DNA of 42,424 nt, from the NCBI GenBank assembly GCA_947632155.1, contig CANROF010000017.1, positions 1 to 42,424 of the forward strand, read 5' to 3'. The stretch is from an uncultured Oscillospiraceae bacterium. Its GTDB lineage: Bacteria; Bacillota; Clostridia; Oscillospirales; Oscillospiraceae. Each line of letters begins with the position of its first letter. The stretch's first letter is position 1. Shown piece after piece: positions 22,486-42,424 of this stretch. Under the pieces are notes generated by a model. That model was given only the letters and a program-made list of their open reading frames with translations, was not told where the DNA came from and did no database searches. A program made the position numbers and the translations under genes.

Positions 22486-24237
22486 GTGAAAAAGACAAAG
22501 CTTATTGCCCTGCTTCTGGTCCTGGCCCTCTGCCTGGGGCTGGCGGCCTGCGGCGGCAGCGGTGACACCAACACCGGCGACACCGGCAACACCCCCAACC
22601 CCGGGGGCGACACCGGAAACACCCCCAGCACCGGAAACACCCCCAGCACCGGCGACACCCCCAGCACCGGCGACACCGGCGACACCCCGGAGGTTGACCC
22701 CAACGCCTTCGAGCAGACCTGGCCCGACGGACAGGTCATCACCTGGCTGGTGCTGGACCAGGGCGCTTCCGCCGAGTACTCCCGCTATGACAACCTGAAG
22801 GCCATCCAGATGATCGAGGACAAGTTCCACGTGGACATCCAGTTCGAGAAGATCATCACCAAGCAGAACAACAAGGAAAACTACCTGCTGCGCCTCACCG
22901 AGGACCCCCTGCCCGACGTCATCGGCTACAACAACGAGGAAAACTATAACGGCGGCATCGTGGGCCTCTACAACGACGGCCTCATCATCGAGCTCAACGA
23001 CATGATCGAGAAGATGCCCAACCTCCAGAAGATCTTCGAGGAGTATCCCAACGTCGCCAAGGACATGAGCAACAACGACGGCAAGTACTATTACTTCCAG
23101 AGGATCAACGCCTTCGCCCAGGAGTCCGACTACTGGCCCTCCACCAACACCGGCCTTATCATCTGCCAGCACTGGCTGGACGCCGTCAATATGGACGTCC
23201 CCACCAACATGGAGGAGTGGTACCAGGTCCTGAAGGCCTTCAAGGAGCAGGACCCCAACGGCAACGGCGAGTTTGACGAGATTCCGTTCCACACCGCCGG
23301 CAGCGGCATCATGCTCTTCGAGGCCGCCTACGGCTTCCTCAGCGGCAAGTTCATCAATCCCGAAACCGGCAAGGTGGACTACGGCGAGAGGACCCAGCAG
23401 TACAAGGCGTATCTCGAGGAGATGCACAAGTGGTACGAGGAGGGCCTGCTCTATAACGATCTGGCCGCCGGCTCCTCCGCCGCCGAGGAATTCCTCTCCG
23501 CCGACCAGGTGGGCGCCTGGAAGGGTCTTGCCAACGCCAACGGCAAGGGCTGGGTCACCACGCTCCATGAGTCCAACCCCGACTACGCCGTGACTCCCTG
23601 CCCCTGGCCCGCCACCACCGACGGCCACGTCTACTCTGAGCGCGGCGTCTCCAGCAAGCAGAGGGGCACCGTGGTCATCTCCACCGACGCCGCCAAGGAC
23701 CAGGCCAAGATGGACGCCATCACCGCCATCATCAACTACATGTACTCCGAAGAGGGCTCCCTGCTCCTGACCTGGGGCGAGGAGGGCGTCTCCTTTGTCA
23801 CCAACCCCGACGGCACCCACTCCCTCACCGAGGAAGGCGCCGCTCAGGTGGAGATCCCCAGCGGCGAGAAGCCCCAGATGTACAAGCTCTACGGCAATGT
23901 CTCCGGCTATCTGCCCTCCTTCGGCAACTGGGACGTTGACATGGCCACCAGAGACGACTGGTACAACGAGTCCTCCAAGCTGTGGGCCGACGCCGACTTC
24001 AGCCTCACCTATCCCGGCGCCATCGCGCTGACCGCCGAGCAGACCGCGGAGCTGGCCAAGTGGACCGGCAACAACACCGAGCTCGACCAGTACATCGCCG
24101 ACATGAAGGTGAAGTTCATCACCGGCGAGGAGCCCCTGTCCAACTTCGACACCTACGTGGCCAACCTTGAGCGGCTGGGCATCCAGAACATCGTGGACAT
24201 CTGGCAGGCCGCCTATGACGCCTATATGGCGAAATAA
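22486..24237 (+). CDS. Extracellular solute-binding lipoprotein of the second sugar importer
   Basis: A 583-residue lipoprotein that starts with GTG, 8 nt after AGGAGG. The lipobox is L-A-A-C with Cys22. It is followed by a low-complexity linker (about 25-65) of T-P-S-T-G-D-T repeats that spaces the domain from the membrane. The binding domain (70-583) is of the AlgQ/LplA type. It carries a calcium-loop-like segment D-P-N-G-N-G-E-F-D-E near residue 256, a feature of alginate- and pectin-oligomer-binding proteins. It is the partner of the permeases at 20426-22346, and the ligand is probably a charged or unsaturated oligogalacturonide (inference from the neighbours). Confidence 0.9.
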   Translation: MKKTKLIALLLVLALCLGLAACGGSGDTNTGDTGNTPNPGGDTGNTPSTGNTPSTGDTPSTGDTGDTPEVDPNAFEQTWPDGQVITWLVLDQGASAEYSRYDNLKAIQMIEDKFHVDIQFEKIITKQNNKENYLLRLTEDPLPDVIGYNNEENYNGGIVGLYNDGLIIELNDMIEKMPNLQKIFEEYPNVAKDMSNNDGKYYYFQRINAFAQESDYWPSTNTGLIICQHWLDAVNMDVPTNMEEWYQVLKAFKEQDPNGNGEFDEIPFHTAGSGIMLFEAAYGFLSGKFINPETGKVDYGERTQQYKAYLEEMHKWYEEGLLYNDLAAGSSAAEEFLSADQVGAWKGLANANGKGWVTTLHESNPDYAVTPCPWPATTDGHVYSERGVSSKQRGTVVISTDAAKDQAKMDAITAIINYMYSEEGSLLLTWGEEGVSFVTNPDGTHSLTEEGAAQVEIPSGEKPQMYKLYGNVSGYLPSFGNWDVDMATRDDWYNESSKLWADADFSLTYPGAIALTAEQTAELAKWTGNNTELDQYIADMKVKFITGEEPLSNFDTYVANLERLGIQNIVDIWQAAYDAYMAK

Positions 24238-24281
24238 ATCCGAATAGACCGCGATAATCACAAATTCCGCAATTGACTGGA

Positions 24282-24322
24282 GGGGCGCCGGGGCGTATTA
24301 TGTCCCCGGTGCCCCGTTTGTT
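24282..24322 (+). terminator. Terminator or attenuator after the solute-binding gene
   Basis: A 12-bp GC stem (24282-24293 with 24304-24315, one G-T) is followed by GTTTGTTT. A further GC hairpin (GCCCCGC/GCGGGGC, about 24336-24357) ends in AAAAA just before the GH105 ribosome site. Read-through probably feeds the enzyme genes at a lower level. Confidence 0.65.
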
Positions 24323-24372
24323 TGGGGTACGGACGCCCCGCCGCAATACGCGGGGCAAAAAGGAGCCGCGAT

Positions 24373-25509
24373 ATGGAGCTTGAAAAACTGGAACAGTATA
24401 TCGACGGGTTTTACTTTGACGAGTACAGACTCAAGCAGGACAAGTGGAGCTATGACGACGCCTGTGTGCTCCTGGGGGCGATACAGATGTATAGGGCCAC
24501 CCAGAGGGAGGAATTCCGGGACTATGTCCTGCGCTACACGGACCGCTACGTCTCCGCCGCGGGGGAGATATACACCTACAGGCCGGAGGACCGGAAGCTG
24601 GACGACATATTGGGCGGCCGGGCGCTGCTTTTCGCCCTGGAGCAGACGCGGGAGCCCCGGTACAGGAAGGCCCTCTCGCGGCTCTGGGAGCAGCTTGAGA
24701 GCCAGCCCAGGACGGCGTCCGGCAATTATTGGCATAAGAACATCTATCCCGACCAGGTTTGGCTGGACGGGCTTTACATGGCGCAGCCCTTCCGGGCGGC
24801 GTTCGATACGAAATTCGGAAAAAAGAACAGCTACATCGACATCGTGACGCAGTTTTACAACGTCCGGAAGGCCATGCGGGACCCGAAAACGGGCCTTTAC
24901 TACCACGGCTACGACGAGTCGCGGCGGGCCTTCTGGGCGGACAAAAAAACGGGCCTCTCCAAAAACGTCTGGCTGCGGGCCATGGGGTGGCTTTTGATGG
25001 CGCTGGTGGACACCGCGGAGGAGATGGACAGCAAGGTCTACGACTGCATAAGGCCGCTGCAGGACTTCTACCGGGAGGCCGTCAAGGCCCTTTTGGCGTA
25101 TGAGGACCCGGAGACGGGCCTGTGGTATCAGGTGGTGGACCGCGCCGACCTCAGGGATAGCGGGAATTACCTGGAGACGTCGGGCTCGGCCATGGCCGCG
25201 GCGTCCATATTCAAGGCCTGCCGCTTGAGGCTCATCCTCATGGAAAAATACCGGCCCTCCGCCGAAAAGGTGATGGATACGCTGATAAGCCGGCGCATCG
25301 TTTCGCGGGACGGGAGGCTGGCGCTCACCGGCAACTGCGCCGTGGCGGGGCTGGGCCCCAAGCCGGGGCCCCGGGACGGGAGCGTGGAGTACTATTTCTC
25401 CGAGCCCGTGGTGGATGACGACAACAAGGGCGCGGGGGCGCTGACCATGGCCTACGCGCAGTATCTTCTCTTGAAAAAGTGGGAGGACGGAGCGAGGTGG
25501 AGAGCATGA
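24373..25509 (+). CDS. GH105 unsaturated rhamnogalacturonyl / galacturonyl hydrolase
   Basis: A 378-residue cytoplasmic (alpha/alpha)6-barrel enzyme like YteR. The conserved segment Y-P-D-Q-V-W-L-D-G-L-Y-M-A-Q-P-F contains the general acid Asp132. W-A-D-K-K-T-G-L-S-K-N-V-W-L-R-A-M-G-W also matches the family. It hydrates the 4,5-unsaturated uronic acid left by pectate or rhamnogalacturonan lyases and so frees the reducing sugar. The ATG at 24373 has AGGAG 7 nt upstream; the frame is open further up without a site. Its stop overlaps the start of the next gene (ATGA). Confidence 0.93.
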   Translation: MELEKLEQYIDGFYFDEYRLKQDKWSYDDACVLLGAIQMYRATQREEFRDYVLRYTDRYVSAAGEIYTYRPEDRKLDDILGGRALLFALEQTREPRYRKALSRLWEQLESQPRTASGNYWHKNIYPDQVWLDGLYMAQPFRAAFDTKFGKKNSYIDIVTQFYNVRKAMRDPKTGLYYHGYDESRRAFWADKKTGLSKNVWLRAMGWLLMALVDTAEEMDSKVYDCIRPLQDFYREAVKALLAYEDPETGLWYQVVDRADLRDSGNYLETSGSAMAAASIFKACRLRLILMEKYRPSAEKVMDTLISRRIVSRDGRLALTGNCAVAGLGPKPGPRDGSVEYYFSEPVVDDDNKGAGALTMAYAQYLLLKKWEDGARWRA

Positions 25510-27077
25510 ACGAGAACGGCATGCCGGAGCTCCGGGCGCTCTTTTCCACGGCCAGGCTCGTCGTGCTCCAGCTCATGGAGGACGACGCGGACTATGAGAC
25601 GGCGCAGTACGACATTTACGTGGACGGCGTAAGGCGCCTCACCACCGCGAAGACCGTGGAGACGGTCTTTGACCTGAAGCCCGACACCTCCTACGTCCTC
25701 CAGGCCGTCCGGGCGGGGCGGCGCTCGGCGGAGCTGACGGTGAGGACCCAAAAGGAGTTCGTGACGCTGGACGTCCGGGACTTCGGGGCCAGGGGCGACG
25801 GCATCACGGACGACACCGGGAGCATCCAGGCCGCGGTGATGACCTGCCCGCCGGGGGGCCGCGTGTACCTGCCGGAGGGGACGTACACGGTGACCGGCAT
25901 TTTTTTGAAAAGCGACCTCATACTGGAGCTGGGCCGGGGCGCGGTGCTGAAGGCCATCCCGGACAGGAAGCGCATACCGGTGCTGCCGGGGCGCATCGAG
26001 AGCTACGACGAGGAGAGCGAGTATCTCCCCGCGGCGTGGGAGGGCGCGCCCAGGGATTCCTACGCCAGCGTCCTCACGGGGCTGTACGTCCGGAACGTGG
26101 TGATCTGCGGCCAGGGCGCCATCGACGGCTCCGCCGGCTTTGACAACTGGTGGAACGACGACCGCGGCGACGGTCCCGCCCGGCCCAGGATGATCTTCAT
26201 GAACCACTGTGAGGACGTGACCATCCAGGGCCTGTCGCTGAAAAACGCGCCGGCCTGGAACATACATCTCTTTTTCTGCCGCCGGGTCCGGTGCCTGGAC
26301 ATGCGGGTGGAGGCCCCGGCGCGCTCCCGCAACACCGACGGCCTTGTGCCGGAGTTCTCCTCCGGCGTGGAGGCGGCGGGGGTGCGCTTCAGCTCCGGCA
26401 ACGACTGCGTGGCCATAAAATCCGGGACGTTCTATCTGGGGAAGACCTACCCCACGCCCACCTCGGACATCTCCATCCACCACTGCCGGATGGAGCGCGG
26501 CCACGGCGGCATAACCCTGGGCAGCGAGACTGCCGCCAGCATCGACGACATTCGGATAACCAACTGCCGCTTCGTGGGCACCGACAGGGGCCTGCGGGTC
26601 AAGACCCGCCGCGGCCGCGGCAGCCGGGCCCACATCGGGGGAATCGTCTTTGACCACGTGAAGATGTTCGGTGTCCGCTCGCCGTTCATCATCAACTGCT
26701 TCTACTTCTGCGGCGTGGATGCGAGGACGGAGTATGTCTCGTCAAAAAAGGCCCTGCCCGTGGACGAATCCACCCCCCAGATCGGGGCGGTGACCATCAG
26801 GAACGTCAACTGCGCGGGCTGTCACGTGGCGGGGATATTCTTCTACGGCCTGCCCGAGGCGAAGATCGAGAGCGTCCTCATGGAGAACGTGAGGATAAGC
26901 TTCGACCGCGGCGCCGTGGGCGGACGGCCCGCCATGATGGAGGACTGCGAGGTCACGAAAAAGCAGGGCATCTTCATCCGCAACGCCCGCAGGGCGATAT
27001 TCCGGGATGTGGAGGTGTCCGGCTACATCGGCGTCCCCATCGACGTGGAGGACGTGGACGAGTGGGAGTGGAGCTGA
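25506..27077 (+). CDS. GH28 polygalacturonase-like protein with altered active site
   Basis: A 523-residue protein with an N-terminal fibronectin III-like domain (about 10-82) and a right-handed beta-helix. Family signatures are present: N-T-D-G with Asp278, R-G-H-G-G-I with His333, and R-V-K with Arg364/Lys366. However, the paired aspartates usually written G-D-D-C read S-G-N-D-C here, so the first, thought to be the general acid, is Asn299; only Asp300 remains. The N-T-D-G-x-D-P-E segment is also changed to N-T-D-G-L-V-P-E-F. It may have altered specificity or be a binding protein. There is no signal peptide. It overlaps GH105 by 4 nt. Confidence 0.88.
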   Translation: MNENGMPELRALFSTARLVVLQLMEDDADYETAQYDIYVDGVRRLTTAKTVETVFDLKPDTSYVLQAVRAGRRSAELTVRTQKEFVTLDVRDFGARGDGITDDTGSIQAAVMTCPPGGRVYLPEGTYTVTGIFLKSDLILELGRGAVLKAIPDRKRIPVLPGRIESYDEESEYLPAAWEGAPRDSYASVLTGLYVRNVVICGQGAIDGSAGFDNWWNDDRGDGPARPRMIFMNHCEDVTIQGLSLKNAPAWNIHLFFCRRVRCLDMRVEAPARSRNTDGLVPEFSSGVEAAGVRFSSGNDCVAIKSGTFYLGKTYPTPTSDISIHHCRMERGHGGITLGSETAASIDDIRITNCRFVGTDRGLRVKTRRGRGSRAHIGGIVFDHVKMFGVRSPFIINCFYFCGVDARTEYVSSKKALPVDESTPQIGAVTIRNVNCAGCHVAGIFFYGLPEAKIESVLMENVRISFDRGAVGGRPAMMEDCEVTKKQGIFIRNARRAIFRDVEVSGYIGVPIDVEDVDEWEWS

Positions 27078-32956: not shown

Positions 32957-33418
32957 TTACTGATTTTTGCTTATGAGGTCGTCGTACATTTTTTCGTAGA
33001 GGCGCAAAAGCTGCTGGTTGGTGGTTTCGCGGCAGGTGACGATGGCCCCCAGGGCTTCGGCCTTGGCCTGCCCCTGGATGTTCCCGGGGCTGCCCGGATC
33101 GCCGCTGTCGCCGTCGGCCATAGCGGCCAGCTTTCCGGTGACCTCCGTGAGATACGCCGTGTCCGCCTGGATGAGGGAGATCTGATAAAGAATGTAGGGG
33201 ATGGTGTACTCCACCTCGCCGGTGAAAGTCTTATTTTGTTCTGGCATGATGCTTTCCTCCAAATTTTCATTTGGCGGGGCGCGGAGGACGATGGTATCAT
33301 CCGATATGAACCGCGCCCTGCCGCTTTTGACAAGACCCCTGGCACGTTTTGGCCAGGTCGGTTCATAGCTTTTGCCGGTTTCATCCACGACCCTGATGTT
33401 TTTTTCGATGGGTGTCAC
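32957..33418 (-). CDS. Small protein with PLMP/RRXRR-like N-terminal segment, function unknown
   Basis: A 153-residue product from a GTG at 33418. Residues 7-46 (I-R-V-V-D-E-T-G-K-S-Y-E-P-T-W-P-K-R-A-R, then G-L-V-K-S-G-R-A-R-F) resemble the PLMP/RRXRR domain found at the N terminus of IscB-type proteins, without any nuclease domain after it. The C-terminal 95 residues are mainly helical and acidic, unrecognised. An in-frame ATG at 33247 has a strong GGAGG 8 nt upstream, so a shorter 96-residue product without the PLMP-like part may also, or only, be made. The GTG start has only a weak G-rich site. Its promoter is at 33488-33517. Confidence 0.65.
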   Translation of the reverse strand: MTPIEKNIRVVDETGKSYEPTWPKRARGLVKSGRARFISDDTIVLRAPPNENLEESIMPEQNKTFTGEVEYTIPYILYQISLIQADTAYLTEVTGKLAAMADGDSGDPGSPGNIQGQAKAEALGAIVTCRETTNQQLLRLYEKMYDDLISKNQ

Positions 33419-35944: not shown

Positions 35945-38095
35945 TCAGTTTTCCATCTGCTTTCCAAGAAAGCCCGCCACGGTCTGGGCCAGCTTGTACT
36001 CCACCTCGCCGGCGGAGGCGTCGCCCTCGGCGAAGAAGAGGACGCAGCCCATGACGTCGCCCTCGGTGAGGATGGGCGCGGCCACGGTGACGGTGTATTT
36101 ATCAACGCCGTCGGCGGGATTTATCGGCTTTTCGCCGTGGCCCCGGTGGTAGACCTGGCGGCCCTCCATGATGGCCTCCAGCTCGGGGCTTACGGACTTG
36201 CCGTAGAGCTCGCGCTTCTGGATGCCGCACACGGCGATGACGCTGTCCCGGTCCGTGATGGCGGCGGGGAGGCTCGTGCTCTTGCTCAGAGTCTCGCACA
36301 TCTGTCCGGCGAAATCCGAGAGCTCCCCCATGGGGGAGTACTTCTTAAAAATGACCTCCCCGTCCTTCTCCGTATATATCTCCAGCGGGTCGCCGTCGCT
36401 GACAACATGGACATGGTAGACCTTGTCCCCGTGGTGGACGGAGGACTGGATGACGGCCGTTTGTGAGCTGTCCGCCATGTCCGGCTCAAAATTTGAGGCA
36501 TCCGGGAGCGTCCCGCATTTGAGAAGGCTGTCCACGTCGGCCCGGAGCTGCACCTCGATGTGGTCCTCGAAGACCCGAATCTTTTTCACGATGAGCTGGA
36601 TGTCGTTCCGGTCCAGCTTTTCCTTTTTTAAGATGTCGTCAAAGACGTCCATGGCCGTTTTGGCCGCCCGGTTGACACGGATGATTGTGTTGCGCCGGTC
36701 GGCGGCCAGGCGCATCTGATTCTCAATGCCCTCCATGCGGCGCAGAAGGTCCCCCTCCAGCTCGTCGTATGTCTCCTCCAGCGCCTCCTCCCGGTCCGGG
36801 TGCTTCATGATGTCCCGAATGCGCTGGCGCTTGGTGGCCCGCAGCTCCTCCCGCAGGTCCTCTAAGACCTCCTCTAAGTTGGCCTCCGCCCGCTCCGTCT
36901 CGGCCACGTCCTCCCGCTCGCTTTGAAGCTCCGCATTGAGCCGGTCCAGCATGGTTGAGGAGTTGTCCTTCACCTTCTGGACGTAGAGCTTCAAAAGCTC
37001 GTCCAGCTTGTCCACCCGGATGTGGTGGCTGGTGCAGCCCTTGCGCCCCCGGCGGTGGTAGAGGCCGCAGCGGTAGGCGTCCTTGAGGTCGGCGCGGCTC
37101 ATGGCGAACATGGGGCTGCCGCAGTCGCCGCACTCCAGGAAGCCGGAGTAGGCGTTGTCGTACTTCTTCTGCCCCCGGTAGTGGGCGCGGGTGCGCTCGG
37201 CCAACTGCGCCCGGGCCGTGGCGAAGGTGCGGTAGTCGATGACGGCCTGGTGGTGGCGCTCGATGACGATGTGGTCCTCCGCGTCCCGCCGCACGTCCCG
37301 GCCGTTGATTTTTCCCCGGGTGGTCTTGCCCTGGCGGAGAGTGCCGATGTAGAAGTCGTTTTTCAGGATGCCCTCCACGGTCATGATGGCCCACTCCCGG
37401 TGTGCCTCCCGGTGGGCCTCCAGACCCTCCGCCTCCCGGCGCTGCTTTTCCGACATCCGCGGAGTGGGGATGCCCTCGTCGGTGAGGTAATTGGCAATAC
37501 GCTTGTAGCCCCAGCCGGAAATGTAGAGCTCGAAGATTTTCCGCACGATCTCCGCCTCCGTGGGGACAATCTCAAACTCCTGGCGCTGGTTCACGATGTA
37601 CCCGTAGGGCGCGGCGCAGATCCACTTTCCGTCCTCCTGCCGCCGGCGAATGACGGACCGGACCTTTTTGCTGGCGTCGGTGACGGGCATCTCGTTGATG
37701 AGGAACTGAAATTGAATTTTCAGCCAGTCGTCGTCGTTGGGAAAGTCGATGTTGTCCCCGATGGAGATAATGCGCACCCCGGCGTCCCTGAGGTCCTCCA
37801 GCTCCACCAGTCCCCGGGAGTTCCGGCGGGAGAAGCGGGAGAAGTCCTTCACCACCAGGATGTCCAGCCGGTGCTCCACCAGCTCCCGGCGCATCCTCTG
37901 GTAGCCCTCCCGCTGTTCAAAGGTGTACCCGGAGCGGTCCCGGTCCTCGAAGAAGGTCAGCGCGCTCCCCGGAAACCGACGGCGCACGAAGTCCTCAATG
38001 ATGTCCCTCTGGTTTTCAATGGACGTATTGTCCCGGTCCAGCTCCTCATCCACTGATATCCGGCAGTACCCGGCGATGTTATATTTTTCTATCAA
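35945..38095 (-). CDS. Large serine recombinase fused to a SpoVT-type C-terminal domain
   Basis: A 716-residue protein. Residues 1-150 form the resolvase domain (nucleophile Ser14 in A-G-Y-C-R-I-S; K-D-F-S-R-F-S-R at 83-90). Then come a recombinase domain (160-300), a zinc ribbon (Cys322, Cys325, Cys343, Cys354), a coiled coil (about 380-480) and the usual end near 525. From about 566 to 716 it matches the sporulation regulator SpoVT: G-D-P-L-E-I-Y-T-E-K-D-G-E-V-I, K-K-Y-S-P, the GAF part and a final A-G-F-L-G-K-Q-M-E-N. Most of the AbrB DNA-binding half of SpoVT is absent. The start is TTG at 38095. The frame is unbroken. Recombination under control of a sporulation signal is an inference. 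Confidence 0.9.
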   Translation of the reverse strand: MIEKYNIAGYCRISVDEELDRDNTSIENQRDIIEDFVRRRFPGSALTFFEDRDRSGYTFEQREGYQRMRRELVEHRLDILVVKDFSRFSRRNSRGLVELEDLRDAGVRIISIGDNIDFPNDDDWLKIQFQFLINEMPVTDASKKVRSVIRRRQEDGKWICAAPYGYIVNQRQEFEIVPTEAEIVRKIFELYISGWGYKRIANYLTDEGIPTPRMSEKQRREAEGLEAHREAHREWAIMTVEGILKNDFYIGTLRQGKTTRGKINGRDVRRDAEDHIVIERHHQAVIDYRTFATARAQLAERTRAHYRGQKKYDNAYSGFLECGDCGSPMFAMSRADLKDAYRCGLYHRRGRKGCTSHHIRVDKLDELLKLYVQKVKDNSSTMLDRLNAELQSEREDVAETERAEANLEEVLEDLREELRATKRQRIRDIMKHPDREEALEETYDELEGDLLRRMEGIENQMRLAADRRNTIIRVNRAAKTAMDVFDDILKKEKLDRNDIQLIVKKIRVFEDHIEVQLRADVDSLLKCGTLPDASNFEPDMADSSQTAVIQSSVHHGDKVYHVHVVSDGDPLEIYTEKDGEVIFKKYSPMGELSDFAGQMCETLSKSTSLPAAITDRDSVIAVCGIQKRELYGKSVSPELEAIMEGRQVYHRGHGEKPINPADGVDKYTVTVAAPILTEGDVMGCVLFFAEGDASAGEVEYKLAQTVAGFLGKQMEN

Positions 38096-38114: not shown

Positions 38115-38160
38115 GCTAATTAGCAGATAATATTGTATCACAATCTCATGAAAACAGCAA
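38115..38160 (-). promoter_or_regulatory. Promoter and palindrome of the recombinase gene
   Basis: Minus strand: -35 TTGCTG (38155-38160), 17-nt spacer, extended -10 TGATACAAT (-10 at 38132-38137). The palindrome GCTAATTAGC (38115-38124) follows directly downstream and may be an operator. Confidence 0.55.
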
Positions 38161-38318: not shown

Positions 38319-39617
38319 ATGGAAATCAGGCGTGACTACTATCTGAACAAACTGATCAGGCGGAAGGGCAACGGGCTTATTAAGATCATAACCGGCGTCC
38401 GCCGGTGCGGGAAGTCCTATTTGCTGAACACCATCTTTTACCGGCACCTTCTGGAGCGCGGTGTGCCGGAGGATCACATCATCCGGTTTGCCTTTGACTC
38501 CGCCGACGACCTGTATCTGATCGGCGAGAGCCTCATCGATATGCGCAAGGCGGGCCGGGGCGCCGACCCGGAGAGGTTCATGGCCTACATCCGGAACAGG
38601 ACGGCGGAGCAGGGGACATATTATCTCCTGCTGGACGAGGTGCAGATGATGGACTCCTTTGAGGCCGTCCTGAACGGCTATCTGCGGCACGACAACATGG
38701 ACGTGTTCGTGACCGGGAGTAACGCCAAATTCCTGTCCAGCGACATCATCACGGAGTTCGCCGGCCGGGGGGACGAGATTCATATGTACCCCCTGAGCTT
38801 TGCGGAGTTCATGACCGCCTACCCCGGTGACCGGTACGAGGGCCTGTCCCAGTATATGCTCTACGGCGGTATCCCGCTGGTGGTCCTGCGGGAGAGCCCA
38901 CAGGACAAGGCCGCGCTCTTAGAGAATCTGTTCAGCGAGATATACATCCGGGACATCGTGGACCGCCACGGAGTCCGAAACAGGGGAGAGCTGGAGGACC
39001 TTCTGAACATCGTGTCCTCCGCCGTGGGGTCCCTGACCAATCCGGAGAAGCTGAAAAACACCTTCCACAGCGTCAAACGTTCGAAAATCACCTCCGCCAC
39101 CATCAAGAGGTATCTTGACTATTTTCAGGACTCCTTCCTGCTGGAGGCGGCACAGCGGTACGACATCAAAGGGAAGGCGTATATCGAGACTCCGCGGAAG
39201 TATTACTTCTCCGATTTGGGGCTCCGCAACGCGAGGCTTAACTTCCGGCAGTTCGAGCCAAATCGCGCCATGGAGAACGTGCTGTACAACGAGCTTCGGA
39301 TGCGGGGGTACCGGGTGGACGTGGGCGTGGTCCCCGTGGCGGAGAGGGACCGGCTGGGCCGGGTGACCCGGCGGCAGCTGGAGGTGGACTTCGTCTGCAA
39401 CCTGGGCTCCACCCGTTCCTACATCCAGTCTGCCTGGTCACTGCCCGACGAGGACAAGCGCGCTCAGGAGACGAGGCCCTTCGCCAAAATCGACGACTCC
39501 TTCAAGAAGATCATCGTCACCCGCGACATTGTCCCCACCCAGTACGACGACCGGGGGATTCTGACGGTCAACGTCTACGACTTCCTGCTGGACCCCGACC
39601 TGCTGGCCGGAAGCTGA
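38319..39617 (+). CDS. AAA-family ATPase with DUF4143 domain
   Basis: A 432-residue protein. The N-terminal ATPase (AAA_14) shows Walker A G-V-R-R-C-G-K-S (residues 26-33) and Walker B Y-L-L-L-D-E-V-Q, then sensor T-G-S-N-A. From about 200 comes DUF4143 with a nuclease-like end (Q-L-E-V-D-F-V-C-N, then Y-I-Q-S-A). These proteins are common in gut Firmicutes and Bacteroidetes and often near mobile elements; their role is not known. GGGGTGAT precedes the ATG. The gene is divergent from the recombinase. Confidence 0.88.
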   Translation: MEIRRDYYLNKLIRRKGNGLIKIITGVRRCGKSYLLNTIFYRHLLERGVPEDHIIRFAFDSADDLYLIGESLIDMRKAGRGADPERFMAYIRNRTAEQGTYYLLLDEVQMMDSFEAVLNGYLRHDNMDVFVTGSNAKFLSSDIITEFAGRGDEIHMYPLSFAEFMTAYPGDRYEGLSQYMLYGGIPLVVLRESPQDKAALLENLFSEIYIRDIVDRHGVRNRGELEDLLNIVSSAVGSLTNPEKLKNTFHSVKRSKITSATIKRYLDYFQDSFLLEAAQRYDIKGKAYIETPRKYYFSDLGLRNARLNFRQFEPNRAMENVLYNELRMRGYRVDVGVVPVAERDRLGRVTRRQLEVDFVCNLGSTRSYIQSAWSLPDEDKRAQETRPFAKIDDSFKKIIVTRDIVPTQYDDRGILTVNVYDFLLDPDLLAGS

Positions 39618-39624
39618 GGTGCCC

Positions 39625-39834
39625 CTACGGCTCCCGCGCCGCCAGTGCCCGGCGGTTGTGGAGCAGGAGGGCGGCGGTGAGGTCTGTAAGGTCCCCGGTT
39701 CCGGAGCGGTACACCGCTGCCAGATACCCCCGCTCCCGGCACCGGGCGTACAGCTCCCGGAGCCCGGCGCCCTCCTCGCCGCCCCGCAGCCAAATCTCCA
39801 CGATTTTTCGCTCCTCACAAACCGTAATCTCCAA
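39625..39834 (-). CDS. Small mobile-element protein, function unknown
   Basis: A 69-residue protein with the pattern seen in many small proteins of Clostridia conjugative elements (T-V-C-E-E-R-K-I-V-E-I-W-L, then Y-L-A-A-V-Y-R-S-G-T-G-D-L-T-D-L-T-A and L-L-H-N-R-R). The start is TTG at 39834 with GGGGGTG upstream. An 8-bp hairpin (39841-39848 with 39869-39876) separates it from the fragment upstream. It converges with the AAA ATPase gene. Recognition of the family is from memory. Confidence 0.7.
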   Translation of the reverse strand: MEITVCEERKIVEIWLRGGEEGAGLRELYARCRERGYLAAVYRSGTGDLTDLTAALLLHNRRALAAREP

Positions 39835-39882
39835 GCATCACACCCCCGCCGGTTATTTTTCCCGCCGACGGGGGTGCTTTAT

Positions 39883-40155
39883 TCACATGGATAAGGTCCA
39901 AGTCTGCGTCTGCGTTTCCTCGTCCTCATGGTCGTCGGGCTTGTGGCCCATGGCGATGCGCTTGCGCTGACGCTCACGGTACGCCTTGGTGTCAATGTGC
40001 TGGCGCATAGTCGTGGCGTCACGGACAGGGTCGGTGTCGGAGAGAGCGGCCACGGTCACAGCAGTCGAGATAAAAGCGTCAGCAACAGGGTCGAGGCCGA
40101 GGACACTATCGCCGTCAAGACGATTGAGATTTTCGCGGTATGCGTTAAGCTGCGC
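39883..40155 (-). pseudogene. C-terminal fragment of an unidentified mobile-element protein
   Basis: An open frame of 90 codons without a start codon at its beginning, from A-Q-L-N-A-Y-R-E-N-L to a TGA at 39883-39885. It includes V-A-A-L-S-D-T-D-P-V-R-D-A-T-T-M and K-A-Y-R-E-R-Q-R-K-R, a highly charged, protein-like composition. It is out of frame with the relaxase fragment that runs into it. It seems to be the end of another gene joined to the relaxase by a deletion. Confidence 0.65.
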
Positions 40156-40562
40156 ACATGGAGCTTGCGGCCCGTCTCGAAGTTGACGCTGTTGATGATG
40201 AGGTGGGAGTGGACGTGGTCCCGGTCAGTGTGAGTGCAGACCAGCACCTCGTGGTCCTTGAACTGCTCCGCCAGCCTGAGCGCGGCGGCGTGAGCAGTCG
40301 CGGGGTCCACCTCCGCGCCGCTGGGGAAGCTCTGGACCAGGTGGTAGAACATCCTGCCCCCGTCCTTATGGTAGAGGAGCTTGGTGTTGAGAAAGTCGTC
40401 GTAGGCCGAGGCGGCCTGACAGTTGACGCCGGTGGCGAGCTGGCGGCCCTGCCACTGTGTCTTGGCCTCCTGGGCCACGTACTTCATCACCGAGCGCATA
40501 CACCCACGAGTCTGACTGCTCTTTGAGCGGCTGGAGTAGTTGACGAAGTTGATAATCGCCAT
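40056..40562 (-). pseudogene. Truncated relaxase / mobilisation nuclease (MobA type)
   Basis: From the ATG at 40562 (4 nt after mobC) the first about 135 residues match relaxases. They include M-A-I-I-N-F-V-N-Y-S-S-R-S-K-S-S, a Tyr in the usual N-terminal segment, and the metal-binding H-x-D-R-D-H-V-H-S-H block followed by L-I-I-N-S-V-N-F-E-T-G-R-K. After K-L-H the sequence is no longer relaxase-like and stops at 40056. Full-length relaxases are several hundred residues longer, so this copy cannot support transfer by itself. Confidence 0.85.
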
Positions 40563-40566
40563 CCGC

Positions 40567-40872
40567 TTACCTGCCCTCCTGCATCTCACGGAGTGTGCGG
40601 CCAATCTCAGAGAGCGACTGTTGTACGCCGTCGAGGTTCACCGCGTTGAGCTTACCCATGTTGCAGAGCACCGCGAGCTGGTTGACGTTGTTGCCTATCC
40701 TGCGCAGCTCCGTCAGCACATCCTTGAGCCCGTCCATAACCACCACCTGCTGACCGAGACAGCGCTGAGTGACGTAGTCGCTCTGAGAGAGGTGAGCCTT
40801 CTTCGCGTTGGCTCGAATGATGTCCAGCTCAAGCTTGGAGATACGGATGCTGAGCGTTTTGTCCTTTTTCAT
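40567..40872 (-). CDS. mobC: MobC-type relaxosome accessory protein
   Basis: A 101-residue protein. The N-terminal ribbon-helix-helix (K-T-L-S-I-R-I-S-K-L-E-L-D-I-I-R) binds DNA, and the C-terminal part has the MobC signature L-T-E-L-R-R-I-G-N-N-V-N-Q-L. It normally loads the relaxase at oriT. GGAGGTG lies before the ATG. It is complete although the relaxase behind it is broken. Confidence 0.88.
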   Translation of the reverse strand: MKKDKTLSIRISKLELDIIRANAKKAHLSQSDYVTQRCLGQQVVVMDGLKDVLTELRRIGNNVNQLAVLCNMGKLNAVNLDGVQQSLSEIGRTLREMQEGR

Positions 40873-41122: not shown

Positions 41123-42196
41123 TCACGATGCCACCTCCAGGAGTCCATGGGCACCTGCGGCGGCGTGCGCGGTGACAGGGTCGATAGTGCCGATGCTTCC
41201 GGGGGCGGCGGTATCGTCACTATCGGCACTGGTGAGCTCGATGATCCGCTTGCCGTTGCTCCGGCGGAAGACAGCTTCGATGCCCGCTTTCCTTAGAGCC
41301 GCGGCACTTTGCAGGAGCTTCCGAGATAGCGTACGGGCGCTGATGTTCTCCATGCTGGCAGGGTCGATGTTGTTCACGAGCTGCGTGGGAGTGCCGATAA
41401 AATTTCCGTGGGCCTTCACGAACGCAGAGAGCAGGGAGATGAGGTTGTCAGATTTGTTGACCGGGAGGAGCGTTTCCTCCACGTCCCAGACATTGCACTC
41501 GCTACGAACAAGAGACATCTCCCGGTACTCGATGTCCCGTCCGATGCAGTAGAGTGTAGCCCGCCCGCTACCTCGCCCGTCCTCCACCAGCGTGAAGCTG
41601 GAGTCCACCGCGCCGCTGATGGCGGTGGTCCCGGAAATCCGCTTGAACACATTGTCGTCGGCGTTCTCCTTTCGCAGATGATGAATGAGCAGGATGGCGA
41701 AACTGTGGGCGTCGGCGATCTTCTTCAGCGCCGACAGGTCGGAGTAGTCGTTGGCGTAGGTGTTGTCCCGCTTGGCGCTGCGGACCATCTGGAGCGTGTC
41801 GATGATGATTAGCGACGTGTCCGGGTGTTCGGTGAGGAACGTCTCCAACTGTCCCTCCAGTCCCGCGCCCACGACACGGCTCTCTGTGCAGAAGTGGACG
41901 TTGGCGGGGGCGTCCTCCGTGATCTCGAAGAGCCGGTTCTGGATTCGCAGAGTGGAATCCTCAAGACAGAGGTACAGCGTCGTGCCTTGGCGAACAGACA
42001 TCCCCCACACCGGCTCCGCTTTCGCCACCGTTACGGCAAGCCACAGGGCCAACCAGGACTTCCCCACCTTCGGCGCGCCCGCCAGGATTTGCAGGCCCTG
42101 GGACAGCAGCGAGTCCAGGATGAAGTTGGGCGGACGTATGGGTTCGTTCATCAGTTCCTCACCGGTGACGGTCTTCAATCTTTCAGTGTTCTTCAT
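41123..42196 (-). CDS. RepA/DnaB-like AAA ATPase of a mobile element
   Basis: A 357-residue protein with a RecA-type fold: Walker A A-G-A-P-K-V-G-K-S (residues 39-47), Walker B S-L-I-I-I-D-T-L-Q and L-L-I-H-H-L-R-K, as in RepA-like plasmid helicases and AAA_25 proteins. The C-terminal 130 residues look like a winged-helix region. It is the likely replication or helicase factor of the element carrying mobC. CGAGGAGGG lies before the ATG. Confidence 0.85.
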   Translation of the reverse strand: MKNTERLKTVTGEELMNEPIRPPNFILDSLLSQGLQILAGAPKVGKSWLALWLAVTVAKAEPVWGMSVRQGTTLYLCLEDSTLRIQNRLFEITEDAPANVHFCTESRVVGAGLEGQLETFLTEHPDTSLIIIDTLQMVRSAKRDNTYANDYSDLSALKKIADAHSFAILLIHHLRKENADDNVFKRISGTTAISGAVDSSFTLVEDGRGSGRATLYCIGRDIEYREMSLVRSECNVWDVEETLLPVNKSDNLISLLSAFVKAHGNFIGTPTQLVNNIDPASMENISARTLSRKLLQSAAALRKAGIEAVFRRSNGKRIIELTSADSDDTAAPGSIGTIDPVTAHAAAGAHGLLEVAS

Positions 42197-42250: not shown

Positions 42251-42424
42251 CTACATGCCCATGGTCATCGACGGCCCCGCCATGCGCTTACTCTCCGTCT
42301 CTCGCTCCGCCAGCTTGCGCCGGTGGGTGAGCAGGAGATCGGAGGTCAGCTCAAAAAGGTCGTCCTCGCCGGACTTGAACACGGCGACGGTGTATTTGCG
42401 CGGCCCGTACTCCGCGCAGATCTT
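42251..42424 (-). CDS. C-terminal end of an unknown mobile-element protein (partial)
   Basis: The minus-strand frame enters from the window edge and ends at TAG (42251-42253). It encodes 57 residues, starting K-I-C-A-E-Y-G-P-R-K-Y-T-V-A-V-F and ending M-T-M-G-M. The charged middle (L-T-H-R-R-K-L-A-E-R-E) and the 54-nt gap to the RepA-like gene suggest an upstream gene of the same operon. Not recognised further. Confidence 0.6.
   Translation of the reverse strand, partial: KICAEYGPRKYTVAVFKSGEDDLFELTSDLLLTHRRKLAERETESKRMAGPSMTMGM

Follow-up and report, generated by a model that had tools for sequence, protein, structure and literature searches.

The window analysed here, a contig of 42,424 bases taken whole (CANROF010000017.1, from an uncultured Oscillospiraceae bacterium), carries on its minus strand an open frame (38095-35945) that begins as a large serine recombinase and continues into the 3' part of spoVT, the gene of a sporulation regulator. 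From open reading frames, domains and genome searches we arrive at a model to which we give a probability of about 0.7: a mobile element sits in spoVT, a small gene of that element under a sigma-F-type promoter would encode the factor that directs excision, and excision in the forespore would restore spoVT. Its first part, the insertion of a mobile element that splits spoVT, is on the sequence evidence close to certain, and the chimeric frame is the scar of that insertion, not an evolved sensor fusion. That the element would leave the chromosome in the forespore is held with considerably less assurance, as a reading that is on balance favoured.

The chimera comprises 716 codons from a TTG start with no internal stop; stops are present in frame 1 of the plus strand over the same positions. 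An earlier note, made from the letters of the window, had described this single unbroken frame, which is confirmed, but gave neither its strand nor the position of the junction (residue 566, att core 36399-36386), and it lacked the second half of spoVT, which lies on contig C33 of the same genome. The recombinase portion spans 38095-36400 and is followed in frame by spoVT from about codons 28-33 to the end (36399-35945). Pfam searches matched Resolvase (residues 7-158, 5.3e-20), Recombinase (178-301, 2.2e-25), Zn_ribbon_recom (316-369, 1.2e-12) and SpoVT_C (591-715, 2e-38), Ser14 is invariant in an alignment of 15 relatives, and the coiled-coil region appears as long helices (361-490) in the predicted structure. 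By sequence and model the enzyme thus has the resolvase, recombinase, zinc-ribbon and coiled-coil parts of a large serine recombinase, the class that the note had assigned to it. Its claim that SpoVT is present from within the AbrB domain to the last residues was equally borne out by the SpoVT_C match and by the NCBIfam SpoVT profile (TIGR02851), positions 27-180 of 180 of which align with chimera residues 565-715, so that the SpoVT match beyond residue 560 is present. The score of 145.7 bits lies below the cut-off of 235.9, as expected because the SpoVT N-terminus is absent, and the chimera is not a full-length SpoVT (AbrB domain plus SpoVT_C), since profile positions 27-180 alone are covered. 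In the predicted structure residues 591-710 are folded (block pLDDT 78-90) and the junction (566-587) falls below 50.

The origin of the SpoVT part became apparent from related genomes. In two congeners a free-standing gene of 179 codons, the intact spoVT, matches the last 152 residues of the chimera at 87-88% identity. In the window genome the chimera is the sole SpoVT_C match, and a search with the intact protein recovered residues 28-179 in the chimera and residues 1-34 at C33:9665-9766, in a piece that is 94% identical, has its own promoter, ribosome site and ATG, and past codon 33 reads on into element DNA. The attR core, GCGACGGCGACCCG (36386..36399, minus strand), is found again in attL on C33; at attR it is bordered on its left by the attP arm TGTCAGCGACGG and on its right by spoVT, the target being codons 33-36, with a shared core and an in-frame fusion. 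When attP and attB were rebuilt in silico, by a script that joined the flanks of the 13 elements with both ends known, the joined attP was palindromic in 13/13, with arms matching at 15-18 of 22 positions around one shared centre (GGCG|ACCC); as judged from these sequences the central dinucleotide is a non-palindromic GA and attB is simple. The joined attB keeps the SpoVT frame in all 13, reading RIR(D/E)GDPLEI(Y/F)T, with H replacing one R in two hosts, which is to say that excision restores the reading frame across the junction in silico. Because the 5' half lies elsewhere in the genome and joining yields a palindromic attP, the SpoVT part is the host gene cut by insertion: an exogenous element precisely splits a sporulation gene.

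The same architecture was then surveyed in other genomes, as the earlier note had advised, and the in-frame junction, open to a SpoVT-like C-terminal end, was found at 50 loci (48 distinct), six of them lacking the recombinase start at a contig end. The 48 distinct loci with the same open junction rule out a sequencing error or a chance frame. Fused frames were present in at least 21 of 150 genomes sampled evenly from one family (our own count among the matches listed, fragment L034 included), and a scan of species genomes added fused hosts that include a Defluviitaleaceae bin and Chakrabartyella piscis BP5G, whose genome is complete and has the two halves 34 kb apart. A recombinase relative was present in 22 family genomes, of which 19 were fused, and in none of the 19 was an intact close spoVT found; the same held for the 28 fused among 29 further genomes, the remaining one (G163) having an intact gene and an unfused recombinase. 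One genome (G051 = G175) is counted in both sets, and a distant SpoVT-like frame of G177, 27% identical over 5-166, was not taken as an intact spoVT. G029 and G014 also combine an intact spoVT with an unfused recombinase, and in G143 spoVT is split beside a diverged recombinase that stops by itself. Related recombinases at L063:6001-7740, L122 and L123, unfused and with spoVT intact, probably mark other insertion sites or remnants.

A separate spoVT 5' piece was found in 11/19 and 25/28 of the fused genomes (partial in G166). Both halves lay on one contig in 13 genomes, in 12 of them in the expected order and strand, and the element that they enclose measures, from the coordinates of the halves, 6.9-40 kb: 6.9 kb in G161, 7.9 kb in G169, 12 kb in G152, 15-16 kb in G162, G128, G154 and G039, 22 kb in G145, 24 kb in G157, 33 kb in G165, 34 kb in G150 and 40 kb in G078. 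Among the 20 of 303 records listed from a plasmid collection, none matched through the junction to the SpoVT end; a phage collection contained an unannotated faecal contig (H22) with the fusion, at 47% over residues 4-715. A viral contig from IMG/VR (L203) breaks off at the att core, which is what a fork in the assembly between integrated and excised forms would produce; for its other end no attP partner was found.

Occupied and unoccupied sites were also compared. Three fused loci (L040, L062 and L075) and the intact L074 have 1.8-2.4 kb of downstream flank in common. G169 (occupied) and L069 (unoccupied) have three stretches in common: the 3' part together with the DNA downstream of it (660 nt, 87%), the 5' piece together with its promoter (195 nt, 97%), and 1.5 kb from the upstream side (92%). 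In L069, 2.5 kb of cargo lies between this upstream DNA and the spoVT promoter. This cargo (a sigma-factor-like gene and neighbouring frames, L069:3146-5657), which stands directly upstream of the intact spoVT promoter, is 81% identical to a stretch inside the G169 element (L163:6282-8804). Among 7 intact congeners an upstream flank was common to 1/21 pairs, and the upstream side is therefore variable without any element. For the window's own flanks and neighbours on C17 and C33 no counterpart was found among the congener loci examined; the acyltransferase adjoining the fusion is present in the genus, in G117 on a different contig from spoVT.

The histories of the two parts of the chimera differ. 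In a tree of the C-terminal parts of 48 fused and 33 intact SpoVT sequences (the duplicates L046 and L049 of L010 and L018, and L195, which has no intact frame, were left out) the two kinds are intermixed, with 16 changes on the best tree, of which 5 are forced by well-supported branches, in an alignment of few columns that leaves many open forks. The SpoVT part of L042 is 98.6% identical to that of intact L030, and that of L040 97.3% to intact L074. Between L011 and L014 the recombinases share 94% identity and the SpoVT parts 50%; between L052 and L054 the contrast is reversed, with 72% for the recombinases and 99% for the SpoVT parts. Over 903 pairs the identities of recombinase and SpoVT part correlate at 0.54, so there is some shared ancestry too; on these alignments the SpoVT part follows the host more than the recombinase. 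Its median dN/dS, mostly laid down before insertion, is 0.147 in eight close fusions versus 0.140 in intact congeners.

In the circular form of the element the recombinase frame would cross attP into a tail of its own of about 25 residues (SLTALTPWERFCLGMLNFAERAGVRDT in the window). A tail of the same length and kind was read in 31/32 attL pieces (29 aligned, two more read separately), some much diverged, with G143 as the exception. Beyond the att arm, ten close copies differ by 0.63 at silent and 0.23 at replacement sites, and the same stretch in the two other frames gives 0.23/0.31 and 0.31/0.31, with no silent excess; the excess being confined to the tail frame, the native tail is a selected part of the protein. 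Integration exchanges this tail for the domain of SpoVT. The selected tail argues against an evolved fusion and leaves room for an effect of the swap; the acquired SpoVT domain may influence the recombinase.

The candidate for a recombination directionality factor is a small conserved gene (39625..39834, minus strand; 69 aa, TTG start). Members of its family have 63-105 residues, and the gene precedes the recombinase, either immediately or separated from it by cargo, at a distance of no more than 7 kb in 35/38 distinct fused loci (those with at least 1.5 kb upstream or a visible small gene; ten more have too little sequence). In the three loci without a nearby copy, G031 and G165 have one near the other element end and L066 has none. 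A beta-beta-alpha-beta-alpha fold is predicted with a pLDDT of 88. We consider it likely that this protein acts as the directionality factor.

Upstream of the small gene of the window, GAATA-N16-GGGAAAAATA (39854..39884, minus strand) agrees at 15/15 positions with the sigma-F consensus, GHWTA N14-17 GGNRANAHTR. With a threshold of 14 of 15 consensus positions, and the expectation taken from dinucleotide shuffles, such a promoter is found in 36/42 distinct small-gene upstreams against 1.3 expected (shuffle maximum 4 in 100 rounds), after leaving out copies whose match starts past residue 3 or with less than 80 nt upstream and collapsing identical upstreams to the 42. The box starts 45-60 nt ahead of the start codon in 35 of the 36 and 83 nt ahead in one, and the 30 nt preceding it have a mean identity of 27%. 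The control set consisted of 24 split and 26 intact spoVT upstreams (chosen), together with the upstreams of the 36 recombinases whose start could be recognised, of 26 of 28 gpr loci (the other two were weak and were dropped) and of 27 of 28 spoIIR loci. The sigma-F threshold was reached by 1/36 recombinase upstreams (0.7 expected), by 8/26 for host gpr (0.8 expected) and 8/27 for spoIIR (0.6 expected), and by 18/24 split and 19/26 intact spoVT upstreams; for sigma-G the spoVT counts were 23/24 and 19/26, and on the sigma-E score no upstream reached 14 of 15. The spoVT promoter is retained ahead of the split copies. These data suggest that the control point is not a sensor built into the recombinase, as the earlier note had it, but a small gene apart from it whose promoter is of forespore type; as an element-encoded directionality factor this gene is a candidate. 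The recombinase in the window group has a sigma-A-like promoter seen by eye, TTGCTG-N17-TACAAT (38132..38160, minus strand); for the recombinases taken together there is little sigma-A signal (5/36 at 10 of 12 positions, 1.1 expected, and none at 11).

SpoIVA was detected in 32/32 genomes tested, 27 of them fused, and among fused genomes gpr was found in 28/30 and spoIIR in 27/30. In Clostridioides difficile SpoVT is a forespore regulator under sigma-F/sigma-G, and a spoVT mutant forms no heat-resistant spores (PMC3789822), so a permanently split spoVT should be costly. We picture the cycle as follows. In growing cells the sigma-A-type promoter would supply the recombinase, which alone would favour integration, and spoVT would stay split. 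During sporulation sigma-F would switch on the small gene in the forespore; with its product as directionality factor the recombinase would join attL to attR, the element would leave as a circle, and spoVT would be whole just as its sigma-F/sigma-G-type promoter fires. The circle would be trapped in the spore, and the small protein would be gone by outgrowth. Since it is the forespore that carries on the germ line, the circle has to return to the chromosome at outgrowth: conceivably the recombinase with its native tail would re-integrate it, or the relaxase of the element might mobilise it. As a tentative generalisation, for which the odds are somewhat adverse, elements of gut Clostridia might undergo a programmed and reversible germ-line excision, with a circle packed in the spore, its re-integration, and two state-dependent forms of the recombinase.

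Several observations weigh against this model. Forespore excision alters the germ line, so that the element would persist only by re-integrating, a step that is wholly conjectural. The attP site was not found in 400 family assemblies with one pattern, which was modelled on the most frequent att types and allowed up to 3 mismatches; the single match is by its letters an attL site. Two exact attP patterns gave 0 matches in viral contigs. The assembly of the window genome does not contain the element in one piece: its ends are on two contigs (C17 and C33), and since the window is one whole contig, the element extends past the window's right end. The spoVT 5' piece was not found in 8/19 and 3/28 fused genomes, the halves in G031 are in the wrong order (C23:5412-5519 and 24089-26239, 18.5 kb apart), through either rearrangement or misassembly, and the upstream flanks of 5' pieces match intact congeners over about 165-205 nt only, G169/L069 excepted. 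Searches of Pfam, PHROG and NCBIfam gave no match of note for the small protein and comparison of its structural model gave no convincing relative, so that the role proposed for it is a conjecture based on where the gene lies and on its promoter. As for that promoter, 6/42 copies fall below the threshold, and the host's sigma-F genes themselves score low, with a stricter pattern reducing gpr to 5/26 and spoIIR to 3/27. A second small-gene copy is cut by the contig end at the right of the window (42284..42424, minus strand), and a second copy in L059 lies behind a sigma-A-type promoter. Finally, gpr was not found in fused G052 and G154, nor spoIIR in G169, G154 and G161, although drafts may hide them, and the SpoVT part is very divergent, with very long branches, in L019 and L057, where SpoVT function may have been lost.

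Part of this evidence would suit the strongest competing explanation, that of an ordinary integrative mobilisable element for which spoVT is a conserved landing site, sporulation being lost or lowered until the element leaves, and the chimera and the sigma-F-like box having no developmental role. The att anatomy is the same as in other serine-integrase elements, mobilisation genes are accompanied by varied cargo, no excised form was seen in the assemblies or viral contigs searched, and both the fast evolution of the SpoVT part in L019 and L057 and the few hosts without a detected gpr or spoIIR would fit. A landing site does not, on the other hand, agree well with a sigma-F-type promoter kept in most small-gene copies while the preceding 30 nt have diverged, with a SpoVT part open to its end in every distinct locus, or with a spoVT promoter kept before split copies; the nearly equal dN/dS of fused and intact SpoVT points the same way, though it mostly records the time before insertion. 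We judge this explanation unlikely.

Still less probable, at long odds, is that the swap of the C-terminus itself sets direction, one form integrating and the other being silent or excising: a conserved and selected tail is indeed lost upon integration, but unfused relatives exist, and in two known systems it is a factor distinct from the recombinase that sets direction (PMC5025042, PMC5595907). That the chimera works as a sensor-gated recombinase, in which the GAF-like domain of SpoVT would sense a ligand or spore state as the earlier note had proposed, is very improbable and unsupported by our data, for although 48/48 distinct fused frames contain no stop before the end of SpoVT and the domain is predicted to fold in the chimera, it is a resident host gene not inherited with the recombinase, which keeps a different tail for the circular form, and in G143 a split spoVT accompanies an unfused recombinase. 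An evolved sensor fusion was rejected on the SpoVT tree, the identity contrasts and the native-tail results.

The remaining genes of the element in the window were assigned by Pfam. Between the small gene and the recombinase lies, as cargo on the plus strand, an ATPase of AAA_14/DUF4143 type (38319..39617). On the minus strand follow a MobA/VirD2-type relaxase domain (40056..40604) in a frame of 182 aa that may be truncated (the frame in G128 has 436 aa), a MobC/NikA-like mobilisation protein (40567..40872) and an AAA_25 ATPase (41123..42196). Judging by these genes the element is probably integrative and mobilisable. Its side on the other contig of the window genome (C33:355-7540, locus L109) encodes thiol-activated cytolysin, VanZ, O-antigen ligase, M78 peptidase and nucleotidyl transferase families. 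Cargo varies greatly between elements: G039 carries an SLH surface protein and a histidine kinase pair, G145 a TIR/TPR protein, L065 DUF6020 and Wzy_C, and G078, judged from its frame listing, a long run of glycan-type genes. On the chromosomal side of the window, 32957-33418 (minus strand) gave a weak RRXRR match (E 0.0043, 17.4 bits versus a cut-off of 25).

The rearrangements of this kind that we found described affect mother-cell genes, and the altered genome dies with the cell. If the model is true, the spoVT element would, as far as we know, be the first case of programmed excision in the spore lineage itself, it would link spore formation in many uncultured bacteria of the gut to a mobile element, and it would offer a testable switch protein without known relatives. 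It also carries a warning, as SpoVT may be annotated as missing or fused in such genomes.

Large serine recombinases are also used by Tn4451-type elements and by those of Tn5397 type, with whose TndX the window enzyme is 29.8% identical over residues 4-400. Compared with these elements, the one in the window likewise carries relaxase and MobC domains; unlike them, it has one target, spoVT codons 33-36, with a shared core and an in-frame fusion.

Developmental excision in the manner of SpoIVCA and skin, to which the earlier note had pointed, is a relevant comparison. A close likeness is with skin in sigK of C. difficile (recombinase CD1231, directionality factor CD1234), also a serine recombinase element inside the gene of a sporulation regulator. 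As described there, the recombinase is constitutive, being made from a sigma-A-type promoter in either compartment, and integrates alone, and excision requires a directionality factor specific to one compartment (PMC5025042), an arrangement resembled here by a sigma-A-type promoter for the recombinase and a separate small factor with a compartment-specific promoter. Skin, however, excises in the mother cell under sigma-E/SpoIIID, whereas the gene split here belongs to the forespore and the candidate factor is preceded by a sigma-F-type promoter. The gin element in gerE of Bacillus cereus (GirC, GirX) is likewise a non-phage element that splits the gene of a small transcription factor, with GirX (6.5 kDa) as its small directionality factor (PMC5595907). 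GerE, unlike SpoVT, acts late in the mother cell (PMC10747680), and gin has three recombinases, with no mention of a recombinase/host-gene fusion in the portion of that account drawn on here (PMC5595907).

SP-beta in spsM, vfbin in spoVFB, vrin in spoVR and yin in yabG are further elements of sporulation genes that are rebuilt by excision (PMC4191935, PMC10747680); unlike the spoVT element, these are described as in mother-cell genes (PMC4191935) or as prophage-like (PMC10747680), and spoVT is named 0 times in the texts of these two accounts. Neither an element in spoVT nor forespore excision appeared in the titles and abstract openings searched, a collection that covers few subscription journals. 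The described sporulation gene-intervening elements sit in targets expressed in the mother cell, a trait that spoVT, with promoters of sigma-F/sigma-G type, does not share; as presented in PMC5595907, it is a trait of the described cases and not part of the definition. Pending formal membership upon proof of excision, we regard the spoVT element as a variant of the sporulation gene-intervening elements, distinct in its target, its compartment and the frame shared by recombinase and host gene.

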